Shown here in pieces: positions 6,338 through 38,655 of a DNA stretch of 64,000 bases; positions within the stretch are counted from its first letter, which is position 1, and every line of letters begins with the position of its first letter. The notes below the pieces were generated by a model. It had not been told where the DNA came from, made no database searches, and was given only the letters and a program-made list of their open reading frames with translations. This DNA is from Torymus aiolomorphi (taxonomy: Eukaryota; Arthropoda; Insecta; Hymenoptera; Torymidae), in assembly GCA_036365515.1 (NCBI GenBank), contig CM070873.1:179690104-179754103 (forward strand). The letters are read 5' to 3'. Position numbers and translations under genes: made by a program.

Positions 6338-6343
6338 AGCTTT

Positions 6344-11381: not shown

Positions 11382-11814
11382 TGTTACATGAGGGTCACAA
11401 TTAAGATGACACTCACGCAACTTTGATATTTCCTTGCGAAAATATCATTAATCGGTCGTCACTCTCGGGACATCTATCATTCCCGCCTTGATGGTACCTT
11501 ACCTGCGCTGATACTTCAGCCTAATACTCCCATACGTATTAGGTTATATAAGGCTTTTCGTATGATGGAAGATAAGAACTGATACAGAGATTAAAGAGAT
11601 TCAAACCAATAATTATTTATTATTTATTATATTCCTTATTTTAATACAATTTATAATCTGCTAATAAATCTCTGTATATGAATGTGCGTATAAATGTGGG
11701 TATACGCGTGAAAGAAATCCGGAACGAAACCCCGTTAATGTAGTTTAAAAAAAAAGAAACTTTGTAAAAAACCTTAATGTCTATATAATTAACCAACAGA
11801 TGTATTTATGTAGG

Positions 11815-11857
<43 letters not shown>

Positions 11858-14800
11858 CTGTTCACCGCTATGTTTCAGAACTTTTCATTGGTTTACCGCT
11901 ATGTTTCAGGACATTTGCATGTTTTCAGGACTGTACTGAATTAGGAATATGTTTACCTTTCAGGACATTTTTGTATTATTCAGGACATTTAGGGTTTCTT
12001 TCACAACGTTCTTTTCCGTAAAATTTTTCCGAAATCAACGTAAAATACCGCGGAACCGAAAGGGGGCGCCGCAGGGGTCGTGGTGTTAGTCAACACCCTG
12101 ACGGATATTATTTCTTTAGTTACTTATATACTGTTTAACGTTTTATACCTCCTTCTATTGCAGAAAATCTGTAGGTGTCCTGGAAGGTAGCGGTGTACTA
12201 AGTTATATATATATATATATATATATAAATATCTTTGTACGGTATTTTGAGGATTTCATAAAGAATTTGTAAAATAGTGGTGACACAAATATAAACATTG
12301 TTATAAACAACCAATAAACAAGCGCGTGACTAAAGAAATAATGACCCTAAGGTTATTGACTAACACCACGACGCCTGCGGCACCCGCTTTTACGGAAAAA
12401 TATCACGGAATTTCCGAAATCGATGTATTAACACAATATTGTGGAAACCGCTGAAAAATCCTCAAAATGCCTCTCGAGTGCTTTGGACTTTTGAGGAGAC
12501 TCCTCAAAATGCCTACAAAATCCTCAAAATTCGGTATATATGACCTATATAATCCTCAAAATGCGTTCCAGATGTGAATATAAATATATATATATATATA
12601 TATACATTGGTATGTGTATATAAGTATGTATAATTAATTCATGTAAATCGGAGGGGAGCCTATTTTATTTTCCTATCCGATTTATATAATATTCATAATC
12701 CCGATACAGTTTGTTGCGATATAAGTCCCTAGGTCTATGAAAGTATATGTGTATTTGTGCATATGTATACATACATTTATCTTTATATATTCCGAATTGA
12801 AGTAATATAACTTAATTAAGAAATGCCCGGCTCTGGTCGGTACGTTCTATTCGTCCTGGTATAACGCGGAACACGCACACCCATAGGCAGCGAACCTACG
12901 CGTATGATTGGCTATTACGGCTGCAGATTCGCGCGAGCATGCACGCTGACCCTTATGTACGTAGCCGCCGCGTGCGCGATTGTGATGTTAGACCGCCGTC
13001 TTACATGTATAGAATCGCGCGACTAGTAAACTTGGTGTCACGTGGGCTGAGTGCTAACCTCCAGTGTGCGTACGTTGACGGGCCCTGGACACAAGGAGCA
13101 GACGGAGGCACTTGCGGTGGATAGGATTAAACGGATGGCCAAAGGACAGAAGGGGTTAATCTCTTTATCAGATATGTATTTTCCTTTTTTTTTATAAATT
13201 TCCCGAAATCTGAAGATTGGTGATTCTTTGTGGCCGTGTTGGTTTTCTGTTTGTTTCAGATCTGGAACGCTTGCCTGCAGCTGGCGTGATTTGTGTAGGC
13301 TACGTACTCGGCCTCCTTTCCATATGATGTTTTGGAGATGGATTTGTCTTGATGTTGGTTGATGCCAATAAAATAGCAATGCGATTGGCAACTCCCAATA
13401 GGCTAGAGAGCGGCCTTTGATCCAGAAACGAAGTTGCCCTGAGGGAATGTAGCTGGCTCAATTCGTTCCCCAATTATTTTACAGATGAAATTGTGGAGAT
13501 ATTTCTAGCTTCCTTTTCTTTTTGAGATATACAGGAAGGTATAATGAAAAGGATGTAAAAGGCGAGGGCCAGTTAACGCACAACACACCTCAGCCCTAAT
13601 CAATGTTTCTACTAGGTATGTTAATTAGTGTTCAAATCTGAGAATTCTTGAAAGCAAAATTAAATGAGTGAATGTAAGTATAGATGCGTGTATACACATA
13701 CACTGATAGGTATAGAATTGATTAGTTAAGCTTGAAATTATCTAGATAACGTATGACCTTTTATATTTTTACTGTATAATGTGCAAAACTACTACAAAAA
13801 GATTGGTAATTAATAAATTGTCGTACATTCTCTCTAGTTATAATTCTACTGATAATGAATGTGTGGATGTATTACTACAGATCATTAATTATGAAGTGTT
13901 ATGCTTCTGTATAATATTCTTAGTTTGCGTATGATTGATGGTTTTATCCTTCGCTATTAGTGAATGGGTTTAATAATTATTAAATGTTATCTTTATATGC
14001 ACGTTGATGCTCGCCTATCCTCAAAATCTATATTAATTGCTCTCAACTTATTTCAATTTTGAAATTATATTATTATTTATGATGATAGAAAAGGCGCGTA
14101 ATTTAATAATATGGAATTATCTTCACTCCAATGTATGGTTTGACAATTTACATAATATCTAAAGCTAATTTTTTTTTTCTTTCTAGATTGACTATTATAA
14201 GTGGGAGATTTTACAGAAAAATCAATCAATGAAACATACTAAGCATATAAACATAACCGTTTAACGTAATAAGATCATATGTATATACTATTATTCTGAT
14301 ACACTATTAGAATCTCTGTGTAGAGTATTATTACGGCTCGTACTTAATCACTAAATCTCATAAGTATGTTATGGACGCTACTCTCTATCACCTCTGTACG
14401 GGTGTCTCTTGAGAACCTTTAGTATTAGGAGAAATACTTCGGCTATAAAATTTATAATCTTTATAGTAATGATATAAAAGGCCGAAATTCTGTAAATTCT
14501 TTGTGTCGTTTCAACCATAAAAAAAAGGGTTCAATGAAATATTATTATTATAATTATTATTAAACGTTTATGTTTTAACTTAATTTCTCTTTCTCGTTAT
14601 TATTTGTTCTATTAATTACCTTTTAATTAATTCTTGATTTAGTAGGATAAGCAAAAGTGACAAAAATAAATCTTATTTAAATCTTTTTCTTTGTTTAGAA
14701 TTTCCTGTTCGTGCGGTGGTTACTTTAAAGATCACACGTACCTGCTCCAACGCCCGGATTTGGGTATACTATTATTTCTTTGTTTTATTTTTATTTATTG

Positions 14801-15644
14801 TATTATTAAATTGATATCAAATTTACTTACTTTCTAGGTAGCTAGATGGACTTTGTATCAAAAATTGGGAAATGCTCTAGGATAGAAATTTAAGTCCTTC
14901 TAGATCTGGAATTCCTGGTTAACTATATAGTTGTAAAATGGCCTCTCTGAATTTTATTCGGTGTAATTGTAATTTATAATCCTTGCTCCATGTATTTGGA
15001 ATTTTCCTTGTGTCACATAGACCTAATTTTCGCTCTTTTAATTCTCACTAATAATTTTGAGTTTTCACTGTATGTATAGATATATTTGTTTCAAGTATTA
15101 TATATTTTTTGTTAAACTTTTCTAAGATTACTTCTTTTTCTAGTTGTCCTATTCTTTCAGACGATTCAACTATACTGAACTCGGGGCACGCTTAATTGAG
15201 CTGGCACGCGGGAACTTCATTCCCACTCCTTATTCATTCTATCTCACTCGCACTCATATGTTTAGATGGGGCCGGTAACTGAGCTCGCAGATAATGAGTC
15301 CGGACGGTGCTGCCCGTGGTGGCCCGCGGCCGCTTCGCACGACTCTCAGCGCATGAGCTTCGGCCGCAATTGCTGCATGGTCAGCTCTTCAAAATCCGTC
15401 GCGCATTTACCTCCCCCATCGGATGTTTGGAGAGGGTGTTGTATTTCGCCGCTAGCTTAGAGAAAAGAATGCTTCTATGTATGGCCTTGAAGTTGAAGCT
15501 TGGCCAGCTAGCATTCTTTTCTTTGCGTTCATGATATCTTTTATTTTATGTCGCGTGAGTTTATATTGTGAAATTAAACATTTAATACAAAAACAAATTA
15601 AAAATGACAACGAAAAAAAAATTTACATTAGGCGTAACGTAACA
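11382..15644 (-). repeat. Gypsy-like 3' LTR (4.3 kb)
   Basis: 4,263 bp, same ends as the 5' LTR. Preceded on the element strand by a purine tract AAGAAGGGGATG (15645-15656), the likely polypurine tract. It contains an extra segment at about 11856-12585 bounded by TA repeats. No coding region is supported inside. Confidence 0.93.
11856..12585. repeat. LTR-specific extra segment with inverted arms
   Basis: Present only in this LTR; the other LTR has continuous TA repeat here. Arms at about 12029-12122 and 12329-12425 are imperfect inverted repeats (CCGAAATC..., GGTGTTAGTCAAC, ATTATTTCTTTAGT and complements). Short CCTCAAAATGC units repeat beyond the right arm. It looks like a MITE-type insertion, or else a segment deleted from the other LTR. 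Confidence 0.6.
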
Positions 15645-15929
15645 ACATCCCCTTCTTGAGAGTGTCGCCGTCCTCGGCAAAAGTTTTACAGGTACCCGAT
15701 GAAATCTGGAATGTGGCTGCATAGGTCCTAAGCTTTCAGCATAGTAGTCAGATGGGATCAAAGAAAATACTAGGATTTGGGGTGGGATTAGGATGAAAAG
15801 TATTTCCATTTTGAGTTTAAATAATGATTTATTAAAAAGGTAAGAAAAATAAGAATCTGGATTGGTATTAAAAGTTCTTTACTGGAGAATACAAAGGTCC
15901 TCTCCTTTTGGCTTCAGAATATCTTCTTC

Positions 15930-17074
15930 TTAAGATAACTCTGGAGTATGGTAGTCGTCTCCAGAATCCGATTCGAGTGAGATGTCCGCGACAGATATCA
16001 CTAAACTCCTCATTTGGCCATCGTGGGTGGGAAGGTTTCGAGACCTCGTTCTTGATGGTCGCGATTCGTTGGTTCGTGAGGCTCGGCTGATTCTCACATA
16101 TTCGAGATTTCTGCCGCAATGTTGACGGTGTCGGTCCAAACTCCGTTTTCTCACCGACTGGCCGCACCTATCATGTATCTGGGTTTTGCTTCCCACCTGC
16201 CATCTGCATATCCTCTCATGGTTCCTGTAGAGGCGGCGGCTAACGTTTCGTCCACACATGGAATGATATCGATAGACGGATCGGTTTTTATTCACAATAG
16301 GTGGGTTTGAACGCCGAATGCAATATCGATCGGCATTCTTTACGGTACAGTCAATGCTCTCCGAGCGGAAGTACTTAATAAAGATTTGATGAACCCCCCG
16401 GCGGCCCACTGGTAGGGTCTGGTACGAGTCGATATGGCCAAAGTTGCAGAAGTATAATAGCGCGGCGGTCTCTGCGGCTTTAATACGTATGAGGACATTA
16501 ATCCCGAGTCCCTCGGCATGCTCCAATGGTTTCATTCGGCGTGTCTCCATTTCTGCTAAACGTTTCGCCTCCCATACTTCTTCGGGTTCTTGAAAGCCTT
16601 GCGATATGGCCAATCTAGGAGTAGGGTTTTCTCTTGCACTGGGAGACGTAGTTGAAGGAGGGCCATCGTTCTTGTCATCAGTTGGTCCTTCTTCCTCATC
16701 TTCCACATAGGCCCAGTTTAAATATCGCAGGATTACATCTACGCATCGGTCTACGGTTTCAAAACGTACCCGGAGAGAGACTCGATCCCCTGCCCTTATG
16801 GGGGAGGAAATGCTTAGAGGATCCTCCTTTTGGATGATCCCCGAAGAGTCGGGGTAGACCGAACATCTTCGTACACAATGATGGCCGTCCGTGGGTCATC
16901 TTCATCTGGCCGCAGAGAGAAGATGTGTAGGCCAATGATTTCTTCTTCGCCTGACGCCCCAGCGACCTCGACTCGATCGGTAACTTCTGGTTCCACATGC
17001 TCTGGAATGGAGCGATCTTTAATGGCGGGCAATCCTGCGGCTCGCCTGTATCGGTTGAACAATGAAGCCGACAT
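15930..17074 (-). pseudogene. Accessory gene 2, Cys/His-rich, unknown function
   Basis: ATG at 17074-17072 (MSASLFNRYRRAAGLP) follows directly on a 3' splice-site sequence (TTGTCTCTCTATTAG, boundary 17077). This frame runs to 16814. The +1 frame is open from about 16815 through to 15930 without needing an ATG, so two apparent ORFs are probably one gene of ~380 codons with one frameshift. The second half starts acidic and ends basic. It has two related units C-x11-H-x3-C (CGRNVSRRLYRNHERIC and CGQSVRKRSLDRHRQHC), plausible zinc fingers, then a Ser/Arg-rich stretch. It ends about 290 bp before the 3' LTR. It could bind nucleic acid; no family recognised. Confidence 0.5.
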
Positions 17075-17177
17075 ACCTAATAGAGAGACAAAGAAAACAG
17101 AAAACACAAGATATTATTAATTAAGGGTCAATAGGAGTGATTTATTTGATAAGGATATTCTGTAAGGATGAGATTTA

Positions 17178-17939
17178 TTAGTTAGTGGTTTGTAATGTTA
17201 GTTGCTGCGGAAGTCCAGCGAGATCGACATGGCCTAAGGCACGCTGTCGTTGACAGGTGGCGTCATGTAATCTTCTGTTGCGTCGATCTATAATCTTTCC
17301 ACAAGGAATGTGGACGATTTCTAGTAGTTGGATTGTCGTCGCATATTGTTGTAATCCTCGCCGAGCACGATAACATCGCTTGCTCAGGCGTAGGGCACGC
17401 GATGCGTCGCCGGGATAAAAATAGCGAACGAATCCATGAGATAATGTTTCCTTTTGATCTTTAACGGTGTAGCAGTATTCCGTAAGGCCGAATTGGGCGA
17501 AATGTTTGAAGAAATTCTCGTCCACTAGTTTCTCAGCGAGTGCCTTATCTTTCGGGATTAACCTCTTGAAGGCCCATGGTAGTTGACAGAGCACTCGGCA
17601 GTCATCAAACTTTGTTGCTTTGGGGTGATGAGGAGAAACTACGTGGACTTCGGATTTCATCCGCGGCGGGGGCTTTTCTTTAATTGGGTCGTCGACCGAT
17701 GTATCGTGTTTGAAATAGCTCTCCAGCAGCCACAGGTCCTTTTCTTGTTCGGCAATGTTAGCATGCTCCGTTTGTTCGAAGGAAAGGATGGCGGTTTGAA
17801 TCGTTAAAGTCTCTGAAATGATTTGTGTTGCTACAATAGGGCCTGCTTTTTGGAAACATGTTAGAAGTCCGCCTAAGGTAAGGTCCTTGTTGTAGGTGAT
17901 TTGACTTCGTTATTCTCTTTTGGAGTTGTCGGTTTCATT
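17178..17939 (-). pseudogene. Accessory gene 1, unknown function
   Basis: ATG at 17939-17937 lies 8 bases after a strong 3' splice-site sequence on the element strand (CCCCTTTCTTCCAG, boundary 17947). The first frame ends at TAG after about 21 codons. A second frame is open from about 17900 down to 17178, with its first internal ATG at 17660. The clearest stretch (160 residues) has CRVLCQLPWAFKRLIPKD, FAQFGLTEYCYTVKDQKETLSHGFVRYFYPG and a Cys/Arg-rich region ending in GHVDLAGLPQQL. I recognise no family. Its place between env and the next spliced gene suggests an accessory gene with one frameshift. Confidence 0.5.
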
Positions 17940-17962
17940 TCGGAGTCTGGAAGAAAGGGGAG

Positions 17963-18413
17963 TTAGTCAATTTCGACCGATGGGATGAAGGGTTTGGGCC
18001 CCATAATGGATTTCAAGGAGGCCCGCAACGTTGATCGAGGATTAGGGGACATCTTAATTTTTGGAGTGAGGATTTTATTTTTCTCAGGAGGGGGGTTATA
18101 TACCGGAAGGATTCCTTGACCTCGACGATGAGACCATCGCCGAGCGATAAACAGGGAAGCAATCACAACAACAACCAGAATTTGCAAAGCGATTCCACTG
18201 TACACGAGGGTATGGGTAAAAGTAGTTGAGCGTTGGTGTTGACCAATTTCGTGCATACGTGATATTATGGTACGTAAAGATTCCTTCTTGGGCCCCCAAG
18301 GGCTCATTTAGCTGGAGGTGGCTTGATTGAAAGCTTCGTTCTGAGCGACGTCGGTGGTGTTATGGGTTTTGAACTCGGAATATAAGTCTCTGATATCTAG
18401 CGAGAGGTCCGGG
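17963..18413 (-). pseudogene. Envelope C-terminal part with membrane anchor
   Basis: Continues env in another frame: about 35 residues of stalk, then TAA at 18308-18310 immediately followed by an ATG-started frame (18307-17963, 114 residues). That frame has one strong transmembrane helix (LVYSGIALQILVVVVIASLFIA, residues 34-55), a basic stop-transfer RRWSHRRG, and a ~55-residue Pro/Lys-rich tail. In F-type Env the anchor is part of the same protein, so the frameshift and stop look like decay. A separate small membrane protein is the alternative. Confidence 0.75.
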
Positions 18414-19916
18414 TTATATATATTGGGTGTTAGATGTTTTAACACACGTGGAGGTCAAGATGGCCTGAGTAGTTTGGGCTGTACATCCATCAGCTAGTTG
18501 TAAAATCCCTACGCCTGTAATTGTGACAGCTTGATAGACTTCTCCTGTACAGGAAATTCTGAGAGTTTCACTCATTGGGGTTGAGTACAGCCATGTTCTG
18601 TCGGTGTCTAAGTATGTCCATTGACTAAAGGGATCGGACTTCATGACGAAAGAGCACAGGGAGAGTGCATTCTTACTGGGGTTGATCAGCATTTCTACTT
18701 CACAAACCTTTTGAGACACTGCCTTGAAGATTATACCCCGAGGAGTGCAGATATATCCATAATGGGTATCTAGACACCCCTTCAAGTGTTGTTCGTTGAA
18801 TTGAAGATATCGTTGTTGGTCTTTGCTTAAGGCGAGATGATCATATTCGGACATCACATATGCCACAGGGTGGTGACTTGGCATGGCCGATTTTTGAGGG
18901 ATGGCCACAGAGTGTAGGCGATACAAATCATAAGCGGTCCTTTCAGTTAAAGAAAGAGTCAAACTCGCGATTACCCTACCATTGTGATAAGTAGCGTCGA
19001 TGGTTGCTATCCTAGCAACCTCCTCCGCTCTCGCGTGATGCGAAGGTATCGGGAGATCCACATGGTTTTCTGCTTGGCAGACGTCGTTGATGATCTTGTG
19101 AACGGTATCCTGCCGCAACAATTTCGGATGAACCTTGCGGTTGAACAAGTCGTTAAAAATATGGAGTATTTTCCGACTGCTGTACAATAAATGGTCGAGT
19201 TTGGCCTCTAATTGACTAGAAAAGGTGCTCAACTCCCGTAGAAAGTTGTTCTTTTCCGATTCTTTAGTTAAGGCAATAACCTTATTCTGTAAGGTGACTT
19301 CTAAGTTCTTCAATAGGGAAAGGTGGGTCGCGGTGATGTTGTACAATTCTTCTAACCCAGCGGAGAGGATATGCGTCTTCTCCTCAGTAAGTTTGACAAG
19401 ATTCGTTTGGTCATGGAATAGCTGATCGATATTGTTGTTGATTACATCTGCATCGTCCGTGGTCATAAGTCCAAATAGACTTTTGCTGAGGCTCCCAATA
19501 ACTCCAAGAGGTGCCATTCTTTTGGCCCTCATATCCATTAGAGAAGGTGAATTATTGATTTCCTTAACGTCCATTCTCTCGGCGGTTAGTAGTATCTCTT
19601 CATGTAATCGTGCTAAAGTCTGTGTCTTGATACCGAGTAGGTCCTTGTTCAGGATTGTGTCGCAGCGCAGCTCGTCGAAGTGAATAGCACACCGTTTATG
19701 ACTGTCATTGAGATTCATCTTGGGCCCATAATTTCCTATGAAGGCGTGAAGATCTAGATATATGATTATCTTCCAGCTGCTCTTTTGGACTCGTGCTGGC
19801 CGGACCCTTTCGTAATATATTCCAGGGTTCGTCTCGATGGCTGTCAACTCATAATAAGGTCCAGCGGCAACAAGTGTTCCCGCACACGCAAGCATAGCAT
19901 AAAGTAGAGAGCGCAT
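18414..19916 (-). pseudogene. env: F-type envelope glycoprotein, ectodomain
   Basis: 500 residues related to baculovirus F proteins and errantivirus Env. Signal peptide at residues 1-18 (MRSLLYAMLACAGTLVAAG). A furin-like basic site (MRAKR) near residue 135 is followed by a hydrophobic, Gly/Leu-rich fusion-peptide region (APLGVIGSLSKSLFGLM). Coiled-coil heptads follow (about 160-260) and then a Cys-containing C-terminal half. The element strand has a good 3' splice site (TATTTCAG, boundary 19940) about 25 bases before the ATG, so env was probably made from a spliced RNA. The frame shifts near 18412 and so misses its membrane anchor. Confidence 0.88.
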
Positions 19917-19957
19917 AGTGAAGGCAAGCGAGAGGAAACCTGAAATACATGCAAATA

Positions 19958-21019
19958 CTAGTTAGAAGATTCAGAGGGAGGGACGAGTTTAAGTTTGTCC
20001 GTATGTTTGCCGATTCTTTTGCCATTAGGCAATGCAAGGAGAACATTGTTTTTCCCTAAAATTTCTACTATTTTTAAAGGTTTGTTATAAAAACTATCGA
20101 ATTTTGATACGCGCGGTTCTTTAATTATCCACGCGTAGTCACCGACTTGAGCATTGAGGGTCTTGACTTTTTGGTCGTAACGGGTCTTCGCCTTTATTTT
20201 ATTCGCGATTTGGGTTTCCCCCGCGAGAGTTTGTAATTCGCTTAACCTACTAACCAGGTCTTGAAGATATAGGTTATAAGTCCTCAATCTCTCGTCTGCA
20301 GGGATCTGAGTTGGGAACCCAGCTAGTTTTCCAAAAACGAGTTCGAACGGCGTGAAGTTGGTTGCAGAATGTACGCTGGTATTGTATGTGAACGATGCGA
20401 AGGGTGCGAGATTGTCCCAATCGTCGAATCTTTCCGAGTATGTTCGAATGAAATCCACCAATGGAGCGTGACTCCTCTCTAGAGATCCATTGGTCTGAGG
20501 GTGGTATCCAGAAGTAGTTAGATGATGGATCTTGAAAATCCGTAGAAGACTTTCTACACTTTCAGATAAGAAACTAGTGCCTCTATCTGACAGGATTGCT
20601 CGTGGGGCCCCAAAGTGACAGATAAGGTGTTTGGCCAGAGCATCAGCGATGGTAGTGGCACGCAAGTTGGGAAGAGGTATGATAATCACGTATTTAGTGA
20701 GGTTACATTGCATTGTCAGAAGGTGACAGTTCCCACGCGGTGTTATTCTTAATTTTTCTACCGTGTCGATGGATACTTTATCAAAGGCTTCAATCGGAGT
20801 GTCAGTGAGGATCATGGGCTCTCGAGTCTTGATTCGTTCGATCTTTTTCTCTTGGCAGCTAGGACATCGTCGCACATAGTCCAGAATATCATTGCGCATA
20901 CCAGGCCAATAGTATCGTTCTCGGATTTTCTGATACGTTTGATTGACACCCTTATGTCCGCCAAGATGACTATCGTGTAATGTTTCAATGATGTTCTTCC
21001 TTTCTTCCGACGAGGGCAA
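19958..21019 (-). CDS. Gypsy-like integrase
   Basis: 353 residues, open throughout. The HHCC zinc finger has HDSHLGGHKG and CPSC. The DDE core has VSIDTVEKL, ILSDRGTSF and SGYHPQTNGSLERSH, with the normal D-D-35-E spacing. The C-terminal domain is of GPY/F type (QVGDYAWIIKEP...FYNKPLKIVEILG...KHTDKLKLVPP); no chromodomain. The first ATG here lies inside the Pol polyprotein, so it was not translated alone. It ends 40 bases upstream of the env ATG. Confidence 0.92.
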   Translation of the reverse strand: MPSSEERKNIIETLHDSHLGGHKGVNQTYQKIRERYYWPGMRNDILDYVRRCPSCQEKKIERIKTREPMILTDTPIEAFDKVSIDTVEKLRITPRGNCHLLTMQCNLTKYVIIIPLPNLRATTIADALAKHLICHFGAPRAILSDRGTSFLSESVESLLRIFKIHHLTTSGYHPQTNGSLERSHAPLVDFIRTYSERFDDWDNLAPFASFTYNTSVHSATNFTPFELVFGKLAGFPTQIPADERLRTYNLYLQDLVSRLSELQTLAGETQIANKIKAKTRYDQKVKTLNAQVGDYAWIIKEPRVSKFDSFYNKPLKIVEILGKNNVLLALPNGKRIGKHTDKLKLVPPSESSN

Positions 21020-21476
21020 GGAGACTTTACCGTAGCAGAGGACGGCCTTGATGGGTGTTCCTCCGAATATTTCGACGAGTAGCTCCGTCAGCTGGCCTGG
21101 GTCTAGTGTATCCGAGAAATCTCCTCGCCGCGAGATTCATATGCTCGTTAAGTTTTTCTTTAATAGTACACTCTTAAGGGCTCTTAAAGCTCTTTTGACA
21201 CCAGGGATAAGTTGTGGGGTCGTAATACTTTTCCTTAACTATTAAGGAAAAGATGTTGTCGTTCCTGTATGGAGTAGTAAGGATTTGTCCTGGTTTTGGT
21301 TTCTTAGCGTGAAGGCCCTTTAGGTCGATTGCTCGGATTTCGGACAGTAATCGAGCGACGGAGCACTGGCTCTCACAATCTCTGGATAAGAAATGGACAT
21401 AATTGTCCCTTTTATATGTCAGACATTGCCGGGACGTGATAATGTTGTTTTTGAGAGGTAAGAGGGTAATTCGATT
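21020..21476 (-). pseudogene. Macro-domain-like segment (TARG1/OARD1-like) in Pol
   Basis: About 150 residues fused ahead of the integrase zinc finger. The motif order follows the small TARG1/OARD1 macro domains: YVHFLSRDC (as AHCISEDC), a later hydrophobic strand NIFSLIVKEKYYDPTTY (as YIYYLITKKRASHKPTY), a helix FKSL-KSVLLKKN, and a final helix-strand ELLVEIFGGTPIKAVLCYG (as MIEEVFEATDIKITVYTL). The Gly-rich ligand loops (GAGIA, GCGLD) are not conserved here, so ADP-ribose hydrolase activity is doubtful. A frameshift near 21178 and a TGA near 21140 break it. Assignment is by eye against a remembered sequence. Confidence 0.55.
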
Positions 21477-22668: not shown

Positions 22669-23825
22669 TTATTGGGGGTAATGGCAGCAGACGGAACGTA
22701 CTTGGGGTTTCCTTTCCTTCTTTTCTGCGTTAGTCTTATCATCAGCTTTACACTTTAAAACCATAATTTTAATCCGAGGCAGCTGTTCATTGATATCCTC
22801 TTCGGTGGGAGAATCGGCTGGGTTCCGTGATAACGCGTCCGCGTTACAGTTCAATTTTCCGGGTTTATATTTAAATGTGTATTCATACCCGGTGAATTTG
22901 AACATCCAGCGCATCAATCGTTGCCCCAGATCTTTCCGACTATGCATCCAATTGAGTGGTTCATGATCGGCCACTAAGGTGAATTTTCGGCCTAGAAGGT
23001 AGGGTCTAAATTGATTAAGCGCGTAGAGGACTGCGAGGCATTCCTTTTCTGTAGTGCTGTAGTTGCACTCGGCTTTGTTAAGCGTTCGGGAGAGATACCA
23101 CACAGGATGATCGAAATTTTCCTTTTCTTGACTCAACACGGCCCCTATGGCACCATCCGAGGCATCGGTTGTTAAGGTGAAGGGTTTATCGAAGTCGGAA
23201 AACAATAGGATAGGATCCCTACATAGACATTCTTTGAGGCACTTGAACGCAGTTTCTTGGGGTTCGTCCCAATGGAATTCTCGGTCCTTCTTTTGTAGTT
23301 CATATAGCAGTTTCACTATCTTGGCATAGTCTTTTATGAATCGCCGATAATACCCTGTGAGGCCCAGGAATTCTCTAACATTCCTCACTCCTTTAGGTCG
23401 AGGGAAATTTTTAACAGCTTTGATTTTCTCTGGATCAGGTTCAACGCCCCGCTCGCTGACAATATGACCTAAGAAGGCGACCTGCTTCCTGAGGAAATGG
23501 ACTTTTTCCGATTGTAATACCAAATTAGTTTCAGCTAAGCGGGCGAATAACTTGCGCACTCGCCGGTCATGTTCTTTCAGAGAAATAGCATGGATGATGA
23601 CATCGTCCATGTATACTAACATCTCTTCGCATTCCAGACCTCGCTTGAGATGATTCATCATCCTCTGGAAAGTTGCCGGAGCATTCTTCAATCCCATAGG
23701 CATGCGATTAAACTCATAGTGTCCCGCCGGAGTGGAGAAAGCTGTCTTCCATTTGTCTTCCGGCGCCATCTTGATTTGGTGGAATCCCGAGGCCAAGTCG
23801 AATACGGTGAAATGTATGGCTCCTC
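22669..23825 (-). pseudogene. Gypsy-like RT catalytic core and RNase H
   Basis: RT palm with ASGFHQIKMAPEDKWKTAF, FNRMPMGLKNAPATFQRMM and the catalytic box LVYMDDVIIH. Then the thumb (FLGHIVSERGVEPDPEKIKAV, FLGLTGYYRRFIKDY) and a Ty3-type RNase H (FTLTTDASDGAIGAVLSQ, TEKECLAVLYALNQFRPYLLG, VADHEPLNWM). All catalytic residues are kept. The frame is joined by frameshift to the previous part near 23811, and ends in another frameshift near 22690 before the linker. Confidence 0.92.
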
Positions 23826-24304
23826 CTAACTGATCGAGGATGTCAGCGATGTTGGGTAGGCGTCTCTAACAGTTCGTTGGTTCAGATCGCGGAAGTCAAC
23901 CACCATCCTCCATCTTGGATTTCCCTCGGAGTCAGCCCTCTTGGGGATGATCCAAATCGGAGAGTTGCTTGGACTGGTCGAGGGTTCAATAACTCCGTCC
24001 TTAAGTTTCTTATCTATATCCCTCTGAATGAACTCTTTATGGATCGTAGGATGACGGTACTGCTTTGCATTCACTGGCAGGTTAGGTTCAGTGGGTATAT
24101 AGTGTTCCACCAAATCGGTGCACGGTAAGGCGTCTCCGGGCAAAAGGGACACTTGAGGAAAATCGGTGATCAACTTGTCCACACTAGCTCTTTCTTCGGG
24201 ATTTAGGTGATCCGCCGAAATGAGTGTCTTTAGCTGTTGAATTGTTTCAGCCGTGTCCAGAATAGGGTTATTCGAACTAACTTCTATTTCGTCCCCTGAG
24301 CCTG
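23826..24304 (-). pseudogene. Gypsy-like RT, N-terminal part
   Basis: Resumes Pol on the far side of the BEL insertion. Contains the pre-RT linker and RT fingers: HYIPTEPNLPVNAKQYR, DGVIEPSTSPSNSPIWIIPK, and RWRMVVDFRDLN. The frame breaks near 23811-23826, where the next RT motif continues in another frame. The apparent upstream extension to 24587 is antisense BEL LTR and is not part of the gene. Confidence 0.88.
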
Positions 24305-25279
24305 TGTTTGGGAATTCAATAATTTGAATTCCCGCGGTTACACTCAGCTCGGCACGACTCACGGCGCTGCCACGGCGCGGCAGCACCTCGCGGCCTCCCG
24401 GCGGAACAGCCGGGACGCTACACTGATTCACAAGGTGAATTCGCGCTGTTTCGGTCTCTCTCGCTCTCTCACATACAAATGTGAGAGAGATTGTGATTTG
24501 ATTCGCGAAGTGAATCGTGAAGGCCAAGAAGACGGAAACGTTCAAGGCCTCGCTCTCTTTTTTCTTCAGCCGTGCCACGAGGAGCATCTCTCACCACTGC
24601 GCACCTGAAAATCTCATCGGTATACCTCAACGGATTTCACTGGCTCAAATCTACACTGATCAACTCACCACAGGTTCTACTCAATCTCTCACTGGAAACT
24701 CGCATCACCCTTCACTCACGCAATACTCAAGGTGCAAGGACGATTAGTACAATCGACTCTATTGCAAGGTAAAATCTCTCACAATACTAGAGGTTATGTT
24801 GCCAACCACGTGTTGGCACCGGCGGCAAGTGTTACAGTGAACATGTGAATTAGAAAAACTCAAGGCAGCAATTCAATTATAATTGTTTGCCATTGCTCAT
24901 TTCACAGCTTCATTGTGTGTGAGCACAGGAGGGAGTGTCAGGAAATACTCAAGCGACTATCAAAGGACAATCTCACTTCAGTTGCAGACAGACTCAAAAC
25001 TCACAGGTTGGTTGTCTCTAGTAAGAGATTACTACTCCATTATTAATGTGCACTCATAGTTTGGAATTGCGGACACACTACTCAAATACAATCATTAACC
25101 TCAGTGTAATTTAAACTCCTTTTTCAATTTATGTGAAATTATAAACAAAATTTGTAATTTATTTAAGAAGTGACTTTGTGAATATAGTTTCTATTTTCAA
25201 TGTACTTCTGTGTGTGACTTAAATTTATTTTAACACCCGCAGCATGTTTACTCATATATAATTAAGGCTTACTCAAACA
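24305..25279 (+). repeat. BEL/Pao 5' LTR
   Basis: 975 bp with near-perfect match to 30789-31763; substitutions noticed near 24345 and 24669. It begins with a palindrome-like GGAATTCAATAATTTGAATTCC. ORFs read in either direction inside both LTRs are repeat artefacts. Confidence 0.95.
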
Positions 25280-25282
25280 TTT

Positions 25283-25301
25283 TGGTCCTTCGAGCCGGAT
25301 T
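25283..25301 (+). promoter_or_regulatory. BEL/Pao primer-binding site, tRNA-Tyr type
   Basis: TGGTCCTTCGAGCCGGATT lies three bases inside the 5' LTR. It is the complement of the 3' 19 bases, including CCA, of insect tRNA-Tyr as I remember it. A search against tRNA sets would confirm. Confidence 0.75.
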
Positions 25302-25327
25302 TACATGCTGTGGTGTGACTCGAGCCA

Positions 25328-26830
25328 GTGAATAAATACTCATTAAGGAAATTCTCACAGGTTATCATCATGGCACACTCAAACAAGGATGAACTCAAGG
25401 AACTGGAACAAGCAGGCGCTGTCGATGCTGAAAAGGAGGATGTCATCGGGGCAGCGAAGCGGACTGGCAGCCGCCAACTCAATGTGCCTGGACTCACCAT
25501 TGTTGACACTCAAACAAAAACTCGCTCCAAGTCTCCAGGTTCAATTCCAGCTTCATTCCTGTGTAAGGTTAATTCTCAATACCTGCGGCTTGATTCACTG
25601 GAGAGGATCACCGCCTATATACGGATTAGGAAGGAAACTGCTACGCTTCCAGTGATTATGGCTTGGAAGCAGGATGCTGAGGAGCTGTACGCATTGTACA
25701 AACAGGACCATGCTGTGATAGAAGCAAGTTGTCCAGCAGCTTTCACCGACAATGACTATTTTAAGGCTGAGTTTCATAAGTCGGTCCATGAAACGTATCA
25801 TACTATTGTGTTTGAAGTCAGCAATTTGGAGGAAGCCTGGAAGTCAAACCATCAAGTGACACAGCCATTAACCGGACAAACTCAGAACACTCATTTAAGC
25901 AAGCTGCCAGAGATCAAGTTGCCAACCTTCAGCGGAGCATATACTGAGTGGCCTTCATATAAGGAAATGTTCACGGGATTAATTCTGAATCGGCCTGGAC
26001 TCAAAAACTATGAGAAGCTACACTACCTGCGCAGCTCTCTCAGCGGAACACCACTCACAATCATACAAGGATTTTCACTCAACGATGAGTCTCTCACACC
26101 AGCATGGGCTACATTAGTGACGAGGTTTGAGAATAAACGAGTCCTATTGAATGATCAGCTTGACCATCTACTCGAGTTGAATGCTGTTACGTCAAAGAAC
26201 CCGGCCACACTCAACACCTTGATTTCGGAGATGTCAAAAATTAGGAAATCCCTCAATCTGTTGGTACCACAAGAGCAGCTAGGAGACTGCATACTGGCTC
26301 ATCGCCTGTCAAAGCTCATTGACAGGCCAACTCGAGAAGCATGGGAGACTTCTCGAGTTTCCATCACGGAGCTGCCAACATTTGAGGAATTTGAGTCCTT
26401 CCTGATCGCACGGGTGCGTGCATTGGAAATTGCAGCTGACTCACCAGCATCCACTCAAAAACCGGCCAACACTCAAACCTCAAAGACGTCAAGGAGTCTT
26501 CACGTCACTAGTCCAACTCAACCACGGCAAGACTCACATAAGGTGACACACTCAACTCGGATTTCTCAACATCCATGCACTTATTGTGGTGAGCCGCATT
26601 TTATTGTGGCTTGTCAACAGTTCAAATTGCTCAATGAACAACAACGGAGAAAATTTGTCATGGAAAAGCCGCTGTGCTATAACTGCCTCGGTCTGCACTC
26701 AGCTAAGAACTGCAAGTCACAATATAAGTGCAGGCACTGCAATGGAAATCATCACACCATGATTCATGTGCCAAGAGACCCTGAAAGGAAAACTCAAACC
26801 AACTCAGCATCCGGATCAACTCAAAATTAG
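25328..26830 (+). CDS. gag: BEL/Pao Gag
   Basis: 500-residue frame. The likelier start is the ATG at 25370 (MAHSNKDELKELEQAG); the ATG at 25328 adds 14 residues. Residues ~150-400 match the BEL/Pao Gag domain (KLPEIKLPTFSGAYTEWPSYKEMF, LHYLRSSLSGTPLTIIQGF, LSKLIDRPTREAWE). Three Cys/His clusters follow at ~420-485: CTYCGEPHFIVAC, CYNCLGLHSAKNC and CRHCNGNHHTMIH, the BEL pattern. The frame ends in TAG at 26828-26830 and the pol frame continues in the same phase. Stop-codon readthrough or a simple nonsense mutation are both possible. Confidence 0.9.
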   Translation: MNKYSLRKFSQVIIMAHSNKDELKELEQAGAVDAEKEDVIGAAKRTGSRQLNVPGLTIVDTQTKTRSKSPGSIPASFLCKVNSQYLRLDSLERITAYIRIRKETATLPVIMAWKQDAEELYALYKQDHAVIEASCPAAFTDNDYFKAEFHKSVHETYHTIVFEVSNLEEAWKSNHQVTQPLTGQTQNTHLSKLPEIKLPTFSGAYTEWPSYKEMFTGLILNRPGLKNYEKLHYLRSSLSGTPLTIIQGFSLNDESLTPAWATLVTRFENKRVLLNDQLDHLLELNAVTSKNPATLNTLISEMSKIRKSLNLLVPQEQLGDCILAHRLSKLIDRPTREAWETSRVSITELPTFEEFESFLIARVRALEIAADSPASTQKPANTQTSKTSRSLHVTSPTQPRQDSHKVTHSTRISQHPCTYCGEPHFIVACQQFKLLNEQQRRKFVMEKPLCYNCLGLHSAKNCKSQYKCRHCNGNHHTMIHVPRDPERKTQTNSASGSTQN

Positions 26831-29152
26831 GACAACGGCGCAACCATCTCACAACACGGTCAAACTCAACATGATTACTCAACTTCTCAACTCACTTTAC
26901 TTGCAACTGCATTGGCATGGTACGACTCACCGGTGACATCTCATCAACTCAGAATACTCATTGATTCAGGCTCGGAAATCTCACTCATCTCCAAGGACAC
27001 TGTGGACTTACTCAAAATTAAACGGCAACACTCAACTATACCAATTCTTGGAGTTGGCGGCACGCACTCAACTCAAACTCACGGAAAGGCTCAACTCACC
27101 TTACGCACCATCTACAAAAATCTCAACATTCGGATCACAGCTCACATTATACGCCAAGTCTCAACGCTATTACCATCTGAAGAATGTGAGCAACGTCAGT
27201 GGCGACATACAGAGAAACTCAACTTGGCAGATCCGACCTTTTGGAAACCTCAACCAGTAGATGTACTTATCGGAGCGGACTATTACGGCCAAATTATCAA
27301 ACCTAATCTCATCAGGGGAAGTGTGATTGAACCGGTCGCACAATTATCAATTTTTGGCTGGCTGCTAATAGGCCCATCAAACTCAGCTGTGCAACACAAG
27401 GTAGTACATCATACAACGGCCCCACTCAACACTGAAGACTTGCAGGAACTACTCACCCGCTTTTGGGTTCAAGAAGAGCCACCATCAACGTCTGCAGTCA
27501 AACTCAACAAGGAAGACGCATTGTGTGAACAACACTTTGCTGAGACTCATACGAGAGATACTCAGGGACGATACCAAGTCAGATTACCTCTCACAGAATC
27601 CGCAGACGTACTCGGAAACTCATTCGGAAAAGCTCAAGCGTGCCTCAAGAGAATACTCATAAAATGCAATCAAAACAGCATCTACAAGGAAAGGTACTAC
27701 TCGTTCATGGATGAATACTGCAAATTGGGCCATATGGTGCGGATCCCTCAACAGGACATATCTGCCAAACCATCTTACTATCTTCCTCACCATGGAGTAT
27801 TACGAGAAGATAGTTTAACGACAAAACTCAGAGCAGTTTTCAATGGTTCAGCACTCACAACAACTGGAAAATCACTCAATGACATCATGCATACTGGACC
27901 TAACCTCTCACCTAATATTGTGGATGTTCTCATCTGGATTCGAACTCAACCATTTGTCTTCTCAACTGACGTTACAAAAATGTACCGTCAGATCAAGGTT
28001 CACCCTCAAGATTGGAATCTACAACGCATTTTATGGGTAGATGAAACGGGTCAACTTACTCACTTCCATTTGACTACAGTCACCTATGGAACACGAGCAG
28101 CCCCTTATTTAGCAATTCGGACTCTTCTTCAGCTGGTAAAGGATGAAGGAGACAAATATCCACTTGCCATTGACTCACTTCTATTTGGAAGGTATGTGGA
28201 TGACATCTTCGGTGGAGCTGCATCAACGGAACTTCTCATTGAAAAGGCCAAGCAGTTAACCGCACTATGCAAGGCAGGCGGTTTTCCATTGGCAAAATGG
28301 AACTCAAACTCATCTGGCTTCCTCAAGGAATTTCTTAAAGAGCCAACAGCTGAAGAAGCTGTGCTTTTAGATGATTGCGCTACAAATATACTCGGGATGA
28401 AATGGCTCCCACACTCGGACAAACTCACCTTCAGAACAACTCTGCCACCTCTTCAGGAAATGATAACAAAGCGGATTATACTTTCTGAAGTATCTCAACT
28501 ATACGATCCCATTGGAATTATCTCACCGGTTGTAATCACATCAAAAATCCTCCTGCAAGAACTGTGGCTCCTCAAGCTGTCTTGGGACGAATCTCTGCCA
28601 AACTCAATCGTGAAGAAATGGCTGCACATCCGAGAAGATCTCACTCACCTGAAGACAATCGCCTTACCCAGGTGGTTAGGAATTCAGGAAAACTCAATTG
28701 TAGAACTTCATGGCTTCTCGGATGCTTCACAACAAGCAATGGCTGCAGTTCTCTACATTAAATCTACAACACCAAACTCTCACTCAACATCATCAGTTCT
28801 AATCTCCAAAACAAAGGTGGCACCACTCAAGCGACTGTCAATCCCACGATTGAAATTGGGAGCGGCAGTACTACTCACTAAGCTGGCAAAACATGTTTTG
28901 GACTACTCACGATTGCCAATCTCACACATACATTTATGGACAGACGCAAAGGTAGCACTCACATGGATACGCTCACACCCCTCAAAATGGAAGGACTTTG
29001 TTGGAAATAGAGTTGCTTTAATTCAAGAACTCATTCCAACAGCACAATGGAGACATGTGCCTGGAGCAGATAATCCAGCGGAATGTGCCTCGCGCGGCTT
29101 ACTCACTTCACAACTCAGAGAGCATCACTTATGGTGGCATGGACCAAGTTGA
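26831..29152 (+). pseudogene. BEL/Pao protease-RT-RNase H
   Basis: In phase with gag after the TAG; first ATG at 26912. Order: aspartic protease ILIDSGSEISLIS, then LIGADYYGQI, the BEL peptidase/RT linker, and RT with LRAVFNGSA, TDVTKMYRQIKVH, and catalytic GRYVDDIFGGA. RNase H follows with HGFSDASQQAMAAVLY and SRIPRLKLGA-like and WRHVPGADNPAECASRG segments. All catalytic motifs are intact. It stops at TGA 29150-29152 inside the tract that normally leads to integrase, at a position where the family usually has an aromatic residue. That makes a point nonsense mutation likely. Confidence 0.9.
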
Positions 29153-30759
29153 CTCTGCCAGGAAGAATCAGCTTGGCCTTCTCAAGCATCCTCTATCCAA
29201 GAAACCAATCTTCCAGAAATGAGGGCTAAGGTCACACTCACCGCAGCCAAGTCAAACTCAAGCAAATTGTGGGACATCATCGATTATTACTCATCACTCA
29301 CTCAACTCATAAGAATGGAACTGGATGGGTAATGCTCGCATGTGATAGATTCAAGGCAAAAGGAAAAACTCACCATGAATCGAAACTCACAACTGATCTA
29401 CTCATTCAGACAAAACTCTTCTGGGTCAAGAAAATTCAGCAGGTTCATTTTCACTCAGAACTCATTATGCTGAAAAATTCTCAAGTCCCAAGAAATCATG
29501 TTTTCAACCGACTGACTGCCTACATTGACTCAATAGGAATTGTTCGAGTAGGAGGGCGGCTTCAAAAAACTCAACTCGATCATCACTCAAAACACCCAGC
29601 AATATTACCACGGAGCAGTCAACTCACCACACTGATCATTCGGAACGCTCACCTCTCAACGTTACACGGTGGCGCTCAACTCACTTTGGCACACACTCGG
29701 CAGGAATTTTGGATAATCGGAGGCAGAGCACCGGTCAAGTCACATATCTTAAAGTGTGTGACTTGTGCAAGGTATCGGGCTCAACGGGCTCAGCAACTCA
29801 TGGGGCAATTACCCATGGCCAGGGTCACCCCATCACCACGTTTCACTCACACTGGGATCGATTACGCCGGGCCAATCACCATTAACTCATGGAAAGGTCG
29901 CGGATCCAAAACATACAAGGGCTGGATTTGTATCTTTGTGTGCTTCTCAACGTCAGCTGTTCATCTAGAACGGGTCAGTGACTACTCAACGGACGGATTC
30001 TTAGCGGCATACAGACGGTTCACCTCAAGGAGAGGGATACCCTCCAAACTATACTCAGACTGTGGAACGAACTTCATCGGAGCAGCAAGGGAACTGAAGA
30101 CTCTATTTTCTCAACACCAACATGAAAACTCAATCTTGTACAACTCACTAGCGAACGAGGGAACCCAATGGATATTCAACCCACCTGCTGCACCTCATAT
30201 GGGAGGCAAGTGGGAAGCAGTAGTGAAATCAGTCAAATTTCACCTGCGACGGACCATTGGGGACACTGAACTCACCTTTAAAGCTTCAGCTACCTTGCTC
30301 ACTCAAATAGAAGCATTACTCAACTCAAGGCCGCTAGAACCACTCAGTGAAGACCCAGAAGACATAAATGCACTCACACCCGGACACTTTCTCATCGGCA
30401 AGGCATTGAACTCAGTGCCTGAACCAAGCTTACTCACCTTCAAGGAATCAAGGCTTTCTAAATGGCAACTCATTCAACGGATCACTCAGCAATTTTGGAA
30501 GCATTGGTCAACCCAATACCTTCAACGGCTTCAATCAATTTCAAAATGGCATCATCCCTCTCATGAGATAAAAGTGGGTTCCATGGTACTACTCACGGAT
30601 GAACACTCACCCCCAAGCAAATGGCCACTCGCAAGAGTCACTCAACTTCACCCTGGAACTGACAATCTCACCAGAGTTGTAACAATAAAGACGGCCACCA
30701 CTCAACTCACCCGCCCAATTGCAAAACTCGCCATCTTGCCAGTGCCAATCGGAAATTAA
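29153..30759 (+). pseudogene. BEL/Pao integrase
   Basis: Continues Pol after the TGA. The phase changes by a frameshift near 29315-29330. The main frame (29269-30759) has an HHCC zinc-binding region (HLSTLHGGAQLTLAHTRQEFWI ... CVTCARYRAQ) and integrase core motifs HTGIDYAGP, YSDCGTNFIGA and PHMGGKWEAVVKSVKF. It ends with the C-terminal domain typical of Pao integrases (DEHSPPSKWPLARVTQLHPG). It ends 29 bases before the 3' LTR. The ATG at 29269 is not a genuine start. Confidence 0.9.
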
Positions 30760-30788
30760 ATCAACCTGGCGGTTGATGGCGGGCGGAA

Positions 30789-31763
30789 TGTTTGGGAATT
30801 CAATAATTTGAATTCCCGCGGCTACACTCAGCTCGGCACGACTCACGGCGCTGCCACGGCGCGGCAGCACCTCGCGGCCTCCCGGCGGAACAGCCGGGAC
30901 GCTACACTGATTCACAAGGTGAATTCGCGCTGTTTCGGTCTCTCTCGCTCTCTCACATACAAATGTGAGAGAGATTGTGATTTGATTCGCGAAGTGAATC
31001 GTGAAGGCCAAGAAGACGGAAACGTTCAAGGCCTCGCTCTCTTTTTTCTTCAGCCGTGCCACGAGGAGCATCTCTCACCACTGCGCACCTGAAAATCTCA
31101 TCGGTATACCTCAACGGATTTCACTGGCTCAAATCTACACTGATCAACTCACCACAGGCTCTACTCAATCTCTCACTGGAAACTCGCATCACCCTTCACT
31201 CACGCAATACTCAAGGTGCAAGGACGATTAGTACAATCGACTCTATTGCAAGGTAAAATCTCTCACAATACTAGAGGTTATGTTGCCAACCACGTGTTGG
31301 CACCGGCGGCAAGTGTTACAGTGAACATGTGAATTAGAAAAACTCAAGGCAGCAATTCAATTATAATTGTTTGCCATTGCTCATTTCACAGCTTCATTGT
31401 GTGTGAGCACAGGAGGGAGTGTCAGGAAATACTCAAGCGACTATCAAAGGACAATCTCACTTCAGTTGCAGACAGACTCAAAACTCACAGGTTGGTTGTC
31501 TCTAGTAAGAGATTACTACTCCATTATTAATGTGCACTCATAGTTTGGAATTGCGGACACACTACTCAAATACAATCATTAACCTCAGTGTAATTTAAAC
31601 TCCTTTTTCAATTTATGTGAAATTATAAACAAAATTTGTAATTTATTTAAGAAGTGACTTTGTGAATATAGTTTCTATTTTCAATGTACTTCTGTGTGTG
31701 ACTTAAATTTATTTTAACACCCGCAGCATGTTTACTCATATATAATTAAGGCTTACTCAAACA
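30789..31763 (+). repeat. BEL/Pao 3' LTR
   Basis: 975 bp, same termini and length as the 5' LTR, directly after the purine-rich GATGGCGGGCGGAA. Confidence 0.95.
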
Positions 31764-32735
31764 GCCTGGTTCGAAATTGAGGGGTGCGAATTCACAAGGG
31801 ATGATCTCGCGGGGGTCAATTTCGATAGTGATGTCATCGTCTCGCGTATTTATAGCGAGCACCTGGCATCCTCCGTTATCGACACGTACTACTCCCTCTC
31901 CTACATAGACGTCATCATACCCAACGTCAACGCGAGGAAGGTATCTCTCCTCCACCCCTTTATTGATAACGTTAATTCGGATGACTTTACGTGATCTCTT
32001 GGGCATGATATATCGTATGGGAATGGGTTTTGTCGTGATTTCTTCAGGCGGGTTAATTTCTTCAACCTTCTCTGATTCGGTTGATTTTGGCAGGATTATT
32101 TCCCTATATGCATCACATAGGTTAACGGCAGGCCCAGGTGATGGTGTACTTTCGTGCAGGTCAACGAATGGGAGGGGATGCATCACATCTCCTCCTATCA
32201 TGAGCGCGTTGTAGTGATAGGAAATCACAGCTTGCTCTTGTTTCAGATAGTTCCTTCCTAAGACTTGGCTTATAGGGAAATTATCATACGTCACCAAGAA
32301 CGAGACCGGATTACCTCTGATGTTGAGTATAGTCGTGCCTAGGGTATTCACTGTTTGGTCACTAATCCCAATCAGAGGAATTGATTGAGTAGTGTCCACC
32401 AAGGCCCTTCGGTCCAGCGCACCGATCTTAAGAAGATTAACGGCCGCCCCATTATCGATCATGAAGATCAACCAAGGTCGCCGACCTTCAGGCACCTTGA
32501 CTCTTACCACCGTGGGGTCGTCTTCCCTCGGATTGTCTCTTCCAGTTGGGCTACAGGCACCAATTCGTACGAGGTTCCTTGGGTTCGAGTCATTAGGACT
32601 CGAGGCGAAGTCGTTGAGTTCTGTAGTCCGTTCTGGACACTCTGTTGCATTTGATTGTGTACGGCCGGACGAGACCCCGACGCTGACGTGTTGTTCGAGT
32701 TCGGGCTCGCCAGGGTTGATTGTGGGCGAGCCCAT
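31764..32735 (-). pseudogene. Gypsy-like protease and start of Pol, cut by BEL insertion
   Basis: Frame open from 32735, -1 to gag. A retropepsin-like domain lies near residues 85-190 (WLIFMIDNGAAVNLLK, then LGTTILNIRG and a final VLGRNYLKQ). The catalytic triad, normally D-T/S-G, reads D-N-G, which should impair activity unless this lineage tolerates it. Downstream is a linker toward RT. The coding sequence stops at the GCCTG target duplication where the BEL element begins; Pol continues at 24304 on the far side. There is no independent start, so it was probably made by frameshift from gag. Confidence 0.82.
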
Positions 32736-33844: not shown

Positions 33845-34006
33845 GGTGGTGGCAAACTCTTACAACGCTGGCGACGATGACGAGAAGGAAAGGATGGAGA
33901 GCACAGAATCCGACCTTATCCCCTTATTTACAGCAAAACGAATGTATGCAGCAGCGAGAATTAACAGGAATGACAATGGAACGATCGAACAACTGGGACA
34001 ACCAAA

Positions 34007-34324: not shown

Positions 34325-34529
34325 ACCGCGGACGCGATGGATTAAAAATGAAATAAAATGTTTAGGGTGGCTTGACGAAAAGAAAACAGATTAAGGTATA
34401 AAGCTGCAAGCCCCAACACAATGACGATAAGGCTTAAGAGTGAAAAAGAATAATAGCAATCAAGAGCTAGATACAAAGGCAACATAAAATAATAGGGGGT
34501 TACACCAGGATAATTTTATGGGTAGATAT

Positions 34530-34603: not shown

Positions 34604-35015
34604 ATATGGTATGTATGTATGTTATTTATATATTATAAAATATTATGTATATATTCTTACGGACTAAGTTATGGAGCAGGCACGTGCGCCCAAAGGTGTT
34701 AAAACAAGGTGACTGGCCCGAATACTCAAAAAGGGCTTTTACTCCTACCAATTATTAGGATTCTCATCGATAATGCATATAGCGCGGGCAGTTAGACAGC
34801 AATTGATATACCCAACTCAAGGCTTTGAAGCACAGTTAGAAAAAGTCTAAATTCAAAATATAATAGAAATTTCGGTGAATTATGCGCGCATTAATACTGG
34901 CGCCGTGAGCAGTTGACACGCAATGACTTCTATAATTGAAAAGTTTCAAAACCTCAAATTTTGATTTTCGCGGAAATTCCTCAGTGTAACAGCACAGTGA
35001 GGTTAGAGCGACAAA
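34325..35015 (-). other. Gypsy-like leader region
   Basis: Untranslated leader between PBS and the first ORF. It holds a TA microsatellite (about 34531-34600). One donor-like sequence on the element strand, GTAAGA near 34657, could be a 5' splice site for the downstream genes. The match is partial and unproven. Confidence 0.45.
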
Positions 35016-35031
35016 CCACGCTCTGCTACCA
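35016..35031 (-). promoter_or_regulatory. Gypsy-like primer-binding site
   Basis: The minus strand reads TGGTAGCAGAGCGTGG, four bases inside the 5' LTR end. The first 12 bases fit the complement of a tRNA-iMet 3' end. The tRNA identity is from memory. Confidence 0.7.
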
Positions 35032-35035
35032 AATT

Positions 35036-38655
<3,620 letters not shown>

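Follow-up and report, generated by a model that had tools for sequence, protein, structure and literature searches.

Two conserved accessory genes behind the env gene of a Ty3/Gypsy-type endogenous retrovirus of Torymus aiolomorphi, and their possible role as RNA-binding regulators

Introduction

The 64-kb stretch of contig CM070873.1 of the hymenopteran Torymus aiolomorphi considered here (referred to throughout as the window, to whose positions all coordinates refer) contains a large endogenous retrovirus of the Ty3/Gypsy type, in which gag, pro, pol and an env of baculovirus F type are followed, before the 3' long terminal repeat (LTR), by two accessory genes, here called A and B. Control of expression through RNA-binding accessory proteins is regarded as a hallmark of certain vertebrate retroviruses, and the question raised by this locus is what two additional genes might be doing in the equivalent position of an insect element, and how they might be expressed. 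The answer proposed is that RNA of the element itself is bound by A, perhaps together with B, so that its splicing or its export is adjusted, the protein thereby filling a role like that of Rev without sharing its ancestry; arrived at from sequence comparison, this reading is given a probability of roughly 0.5.

Conservation and kinship of the accessory genes

An initial annotation of this locus had described two gene-length minus-strand frames between an F-type env and the polypurine tract, and this description is confirmed: the env gene is recognised by Pfam (Baculo_F, E = 2.4e-29), and the LTR starts at 15644. The block marked in the annotation, 15645–18413, holds A and B, but its portion 17963–18413 does not look like accessory sequence; this has no Pfam match and resembles by eye the C-terminal part of env. 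The further statement that the accessory frames resembled nothing recognisable can now be replaced, A being an RRM protein whose predicted RNA-reading surface is like that of RBM45, and B a paralogue of A.

A first search (406 candidates) returned four relatives of A with identities of 61–68%, and a profile search (6524 candidates) returned 12, those four among them, with identities reaching down to 29%. For B there is a single relative (P0005, 467 residues, 52% identity; 1043 candidates), which spans both of the pieces into which B is broken in this copy at about 50% identity, and the first 84 residues of which have no counterpart within the window. The existence of these relatives (29–68% for A, 52% for B) rules out the possibility that A and B are chance open frames, and both are taken to be conserved protein genes. 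It should be borne in mind that the relatives P0001–P0013 are protein sequences, and that the linkage of A and B to env is seen in this single locus. When the viral contigs of IMG/VR were scanned using A, an A alignment, P0005, the integrase, env and the reverse transcriptase, no relative was found.

That A and B are themselves related emerges from an hhalign comparison extending across the RRM and the finger (probability 94%, E = 1.1e-7), while a tblastn search with P0005 also detects the A locus (E = 1e-5); the two are classed as distant paralogues. The finger, of the form H-x2-C-x11-H-x3-C (HCHC), is present in nine of the 15 proteins examined, with two in each of the two B proteins; the exceptions are P0003, P0006, P0008 and P0011, which end before it, and P0004 and P0012, which deviate from it. 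In a shuffle control the motif arose in at most 3 of 2000 shuffles for any protein.

The RNA-reading surface of A

For what follows, the A-type set comprises the window copy of A and its 12 relatives (P0001–P0004 and P0006–P0013), making 13 proteins. The window copy matches RRM_1 with E = 4.8e-8 and 33.2 bits, as compared with a Pfam curated cut-off of 20.7, and by this measure A qualifies as an RRM protein while B does not. The scan covered 11 A-type proteins (window A, P0001, P0002 and P0006–P0013), of which seven exceed the cut-off; P0006 and P0008 score too low to reach it, and for P0012 and P0013 the scan gives no RRM match. The remaining two proteins, P0003 and P0004, have an RRM domain according to their database listing.

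When the A profile was compared with the PDB, the top match was RBM45 (7csx, E = 2.2e-13), the runner-up protein being poly(A)-binding protein (E = 2.6e-6), and single-sequence searches with P0007 and P0002 again placed RBM45 first (E = 5.9e-7 and 1.1e-6 respectively). The residues with which RRM2 of RBM45 reads the sequence GAC have been named from its structure (PMC11402289). At the position of Arg122 all 13 A-type proteins have arginine, and at that of Phe124 all have phenylalanine save the window copy (12/13); position 165 is aromatic in 11 of the 13, and Arg186 is matched by arginine in nine of the 11 that have a residue there. Outside this domain the likeness ends, since RBM45 has the architecture RRM1-RRM2-HOA-RRM3 (PMC7064759), whereas the 246-residue relatives of A show no third RRM or HOA domain and end instead in the HCHC finger behind the RBM45-like RRM. 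A capture of A from an RBM45-type gene is plausible on this evidence.

Candidate splice signals

If A and B are to be expressed separately from env, one would look for a 3' splice site ahead of each gene. All 519 AGs on the sense strand of 15645–24304 were scored using a generic 3' splice-site matrix. The good acceptors that the initial annotation had placed near the starts of env, A and B are indeed there, at 19939, 17946 and 17076, and take ranks 5, 2 and 1 respectively. There is no excess of strong acceptors in the region: five reach the score of the env site, 200 dinucleotide shuffles average 5.3 such sites, and in seven of these shuffles there is an acceptor as strong as the best one here. 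Within 30 nt upstream of other ATGs, the scores of the env, A and B sites are reached at 3, 1 and 1 of 134 respectively (these 134 include B's own ATG, at 17074). It is the position of the acceptors, not their strength as such, that is unusual.

The best of the 304 GTs in 31764–38655 is a candidate donor lying inside the 5' LTR, with its junction at about 35156. Each LTR holds one copy of its motif (that of the 3' LTR is at 11497), and these are the sole copies in the window; the candidate donor sits 80 bases after the sole TCAGT in 35036–35400, a word that we take to be insect initiator-like. In having a donor within the LTR the element would resemble the foamy viruses, where the splice donor is similarly placed. 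There is also a hint from the proteins: P0003 and P0006 carry the peptide YLFPDAE in frame upstream of the start of A, and the window copy reads LPFLPDSE across the acceptor, which fits a conserved splice site.

Taken together, the env gene, the two frames after it, each closely preceded by a top-ranked acceptor, and the location of the best donor inside the LTR match the layout expected of a multiply spliced complex retrovirus, in which accessory genes lie between env and the 3' LTR (here 15930–17938, with conserved relatives). Alternative joining of the donor at 35156 to 19939, 17946 or 17076 would yield one message each for env, A and B. The initial annotation's proposal of a multiply spliced lineage of this type is thus supported in part, by the conserved A and B genes and the fitting arrangement of top-ranked acceptors and LTR donor, the spliced messages themselves being predictions from sequence.

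Damage and age of this copy

Both accessory genes are frameshifted in the window, and it is natural to ask whether they were intact when the element inserted. Over 3583 aligned columns the two LTRs show 115 mismatches and 11 gap openings, and at this gap rate, taken per copy, A would have acquired some 1.2 indels since insertion, B 1.8 and env 3.0 (an expectation obtained by arithmetic and not a formal test); those seen are one frameshift in A, one in B and at least one in env. The lesions are about as numerous as the gaps between the LTRs would lead one to expect, so that the A, B and env frames were probably open at insertion and decayed later.

This bears on the suggestion that A and B are passengers, that is, a captured pair of cellular genes present in this copy or a small subfamily, rarely translated and without any role in replication. 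The linkage of the pair to env at one damaged locus would suit such an origin; however, the relatives have kept the domains across a large divergence, the starts of A and B lie behind the two best-ranked acceptors, and the frames were probably open on arrival, so that passenger status is judged quite improbable.

What the accessory proteins may do

In the mechanism favoured here, A would bind the element's own transcript through the RRM that keeps the GAC-reading residues of RBM45, and would thereby alter how much of it stays unspliced as genomic RNA and how much is spliced into messages, or affect export of the transcript. It would then do the job of Rev or Rex in role, though not in ancestry, while B would be a duplicated and diverged partner with a different or weaker contact to RNA. 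A precedent for a viral use of such a surface is provided by parvovirus B19, in which maturation of one mRNA requires the cellular RBM45, the contact with intron splicing enhancers being made chiefly through RRM2-HOA; over-expression of RRM2-HOA alone reduces that mRNA (PMC7064759). A more specific history, in which a Ty3-type invertebrate lineage captured an RBM45-type host splicing factor and duplicated it behind env, so as to yield two separately spliced Rev-like regulators, may be entertained as a tentative and rather doubtful extension.

Two other functions need to be considered. The first is that A and B counter host defence, for instance through contacts with the precursors of small RNAs or effects on host mRNA, and that RNA of the element itself is not their target. 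In complex retroviruses, accessory genes often have such a function, and the rapid divergence of A and B among their relatives would agree with this. The insect PIWI-interacting RNA pathway is known to target env-bearing gypsy elements (PMC13172572). Against it, no defence component is indicated by the sequence, and RRM contacts suited to a short RNA motif fit a specific RNA target; such a function is judged unlikely. The second is that A and B serve in packaging or as nucleic-acid chaperones, covering the genomic RNA in place of a zinc knuckle seemingly absent from Gag. Neither the gag frame (446 residues, 32504–33844) nor the protease-containing frame (31746–32735, extending into the LTR of a nested element) gives a match in the Pfam scan, and the Gag-like frame has RG-rich stretches and no CCHC knuckle that could be seen by eye; A, for its part, carries an RRM and a basic HCHC finger. 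The location of A and B behind env, each after its own strong acceptor, is better suited to separately regulated proteins, however, and A keeps sequence-reading residues, making a packaging function rather unlikely as well.

There are also points that count against regulation by A and B of the element's own RNA. The window copy of A has leucine at the Phe124 position, the Ile188 contact is kept in just four of the 13 A-type proteins, and that of Met126 in none. The PDB relationship to RBM45 is not reciprocal, as RRM2 of RBM45 finds HuD at 76.5 bits, a higher score than the 53.4 bits with which the A profile finds RBM45. B has asparagine and no aromatic residue at the Phe124 position, from which it follows that its RNA contact, if any, differs, and it has neither a significant family in the Pfam scan nor a match in the PDB search. 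AlphaFold models neither A nor B reliably (mean pLDDT, the predicted local distance difference test, 38.5 and 36.7). Nor does the RNA itself offer an obvious target: of five parts of the element, none is enriched for GAC triplets, and in the LTR these fall below expectation (20 against 30.0, standard deviation 4.0). Rfam gave no family in 15645–24304, and the 286-nt 3' untranslated stretch (15645–15930) folds no better than its shuffles (z = +1.56; 191 of 200 shuffles fold at least as well).

Enrichment of GAC was accordingly set aside as support for an RBM45-like target, and a known RNA family (15645–24304) or a strongly folded export element (15645–15930) was sought and not found. The hexamer GACGAC does occur 9 times against 3.1 expected; this is weak evidence for such a target because the control word CGACGA is also frequent (8 times, a count without computed expectation).

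The element and its surroundings

Self-comparison of the window, which reveals paired LTRs and a target duplication, defines a complete provirus at 11382–38655 (Table 1). It has the ends TGTTAC...GTAACA and is flanked on either side by GGAGG, a 5-bp target duplication; LTR ends of the form TG...CA and a short target duplication characterise Ty3/Gypsy elements (Metaviridae), for which a duplication of 4–6 bp is the norm (PMC12440569). The LTRs are 96.4% identical between 11382–11855 and 35036–35511 (476 bp) and 94.9% identical between 12578–15644 and 35566–38655 (3107 bp). Within the extra insert of the 3' LTR there is a 67% inverted-repeat stretch (12059–12390), perhaps a small insertion resembling a miniature inverted-repeat transposable element. 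Without the nested element, and with the LTR insert counted in, the provirus amounts to about 19.8 kb. The nested BEL/Pao element has LTRs that are 99.8% identical, a Peptidase_A17 match (E = 1.4e-49) and a 5-bp duplication, GCCTG.

Table 1 Features of the provirus and its candidate splice signals (window coordinates).
Feature	Position	Strand	Remarks
3' LTR	11382..15644	-	roughly 3.6 kb, enlarged by a net insert of some 0.67 kb around 11856-12577
Polypurine tract	15648..15660	-	AAGAAGGGGA; adjoins the 3' LTR start; approximate limits, by eye
Accessory gene B	15930..17074	-	paralogue of A with two HCHC fingers; the window copy changes frame near 16.85 kb
Candidate 3' splice site of B	17076..17095	-	tttctttgtctctctattag then GT; rank 1/519
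Accessory gene A	17178..17938	-	RRM like RRM2 of RBM45 and HCHC finger, preceded by a weak RRM-like domain at the N-terminal end; the window copy has a frameshift near the N terminus
Candidate 3' splice site of A	17946..17966	-	ctaactcccctttcttccag then AC; rank 2/519
env, C-terminal part and membrane anchor	17963..18413	-	by eye; reading frame here differs from that of the main env
env, baculovirus F type, main open frame	18414..19916	-	Pfam Baculo_F
Candidate 3' splice site of env	19939..19959	-	agtatttgcatgtatttcag then GT; rank 5/519
Integrase	19958..21136	-	Integrase_H2C2 (8.2e-24), rve (1.3e-10)
Reverse transcriptase/RNase H	22669..24304	-	RVT_1, RT_RNaseH; interrupted upstream by the nested element
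Nested BEL/Pao element	24305..31763	+	splits pol; not part of the system
gag and protease-containing frame	31764..33844	-	assigned by eye
Primer binding site	35009..35033	-	TGGTAGCAGAGCGTGG; adjoins the internal side of the 5' LTR; limits approximate, set by eye
5' LTR	35036..38655	-	window self-comparison
Candidate splice donor	35151..35159	-	cag then GTAAGG; inside the 5' LTR

The reverse transcriptase and RNase H are of Ty3 type: the best of 12 PDB sequences found at E values up to 1e-10 is Ty3 reverse transcriptase (4ol8, E = 1.2e-65), which far outscores the retroviral enzymes, those of murine type trailing at E = 5.8e-28. The env behind the integrase, besides its Baculo_F match, also matches a PDB entry described as a fusion protein (9w4c, E = 2.3e-5). 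By its reverse transcriptase and env the element is classified as Ty3/Gypsy and errantivirus-like, and by its reverse transcriptase not as a member of the Retroviridae. Between RNase H and integrase (21174–22298, minus strand) there are a further 370 or so codons, consisting of acidic sequence and another domain, with no significant Pfam match, and between the leader and gag (34007–34324, minus strand) a frame of 105 residues, coiled-coil-like by eye and with no Pfam match, is possibly a further extra gene.

The left flank of the provirus codes for a PIF1 helicase that probably belongs to a Helitron, and a provirus-free copy of the flank at 47868–49770 (71–74% identical) resembles the empty site to within about 25 bases. 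In the helicase-coding flank past the 5' LTR lies a 1048-bp piece of env (39496–40543; 99.1% identical to 18577–19624), adjoined by a 239-bp direct repeat (39258–39496 and 40552–40790, 99.6%); this may be a second insertion or an assembly artefact. Transposons fill much of the window. They include a Copia-like element recognised by eye (4887–9100, minus strand), a mariner-like element with a DDE_3 match below cut-off (43174–43809, plus strand), an element resembling a long interspersed nuclear element (52006–54500, minus strand, RVT_1), and an inverted pair (59197–60925 and 62083–63811, 99.7% identical) with a reverse transcriptase (RVT_1) and, by eye, a GIY-YIG-like stretch, which is probably a Penelope-like element.

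Comparison with known systems

The closest likeness is to the errantiviruses, or insect endogenous retroviruses (gypsy, ZAM and TED, within the Metaviridae), which share with this element the Ty3-type reverse transcriptase, the integrase, the baculovirus-F-type env, the TG...CA LTRs and the short target duplication. It differs from them in its two accessory genes after env, its 3.6-kb LTRs and its length of some 19–20 kb without the nested element; to our knowledge, simple errantiviruses stop at env and are far shorter. With the complex retroviruses (lentiviruses, human T-cell leukaemia virus and foamy viruses) it shares accessory frames between env and the 3' LTR, each behind a candidate acceptor, but its reverse transcriptase is of Ty3 type and its accessory proteins have an RRM and HCHC fingers, and we know of no relationship between such proteins and Rev, Rex, Tax or Bel. 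RBM45 (Drb1), a cellular RRM splicing factor, resembles A in the second RRM of the latter, being its top PDB match and sharing most of the GAC-contact residues.

Extra open reading frames captured after pol are also seen in the Vesta and Juno elements of bdelloid rotifers and in the Retand and Sirevirus LTR elements of plants. In the rotifer LTR elements, the third open reading frames are typically expressed through spliced messages, but they are esterase-, exonuclease- or env-like, and the term RRM is absent from the main text of PMC5408684; plant LTR elements with extra 3' frames are described in PMC7264820. Our literature search, with partial coverage and therefore without any claim to priority, found no RRM accessory gene behind an errantivirus env: PMC12992720 contains none of six terms denoting extra open reading frames or accessory genes, in PMC13172572 neither "accessory" nor "additional ORF" occurs, and the available part of PMC3230855 mentions RNA recognition motifs merely as a common family of a cell-line transcriptome.

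Significance

A layout similar to that of complex retroviruses has apparently been reached independently by a Ty3-type element, in which RNA would be bound by an RRM and not by an arginine-rich peptide. Should the splicing be confirmed, the element would provide a convergent test of why retroviruses need accessory RNA-binding proteins, as well as an example of a virus-like element with a splicing-factor-like gene of its own.
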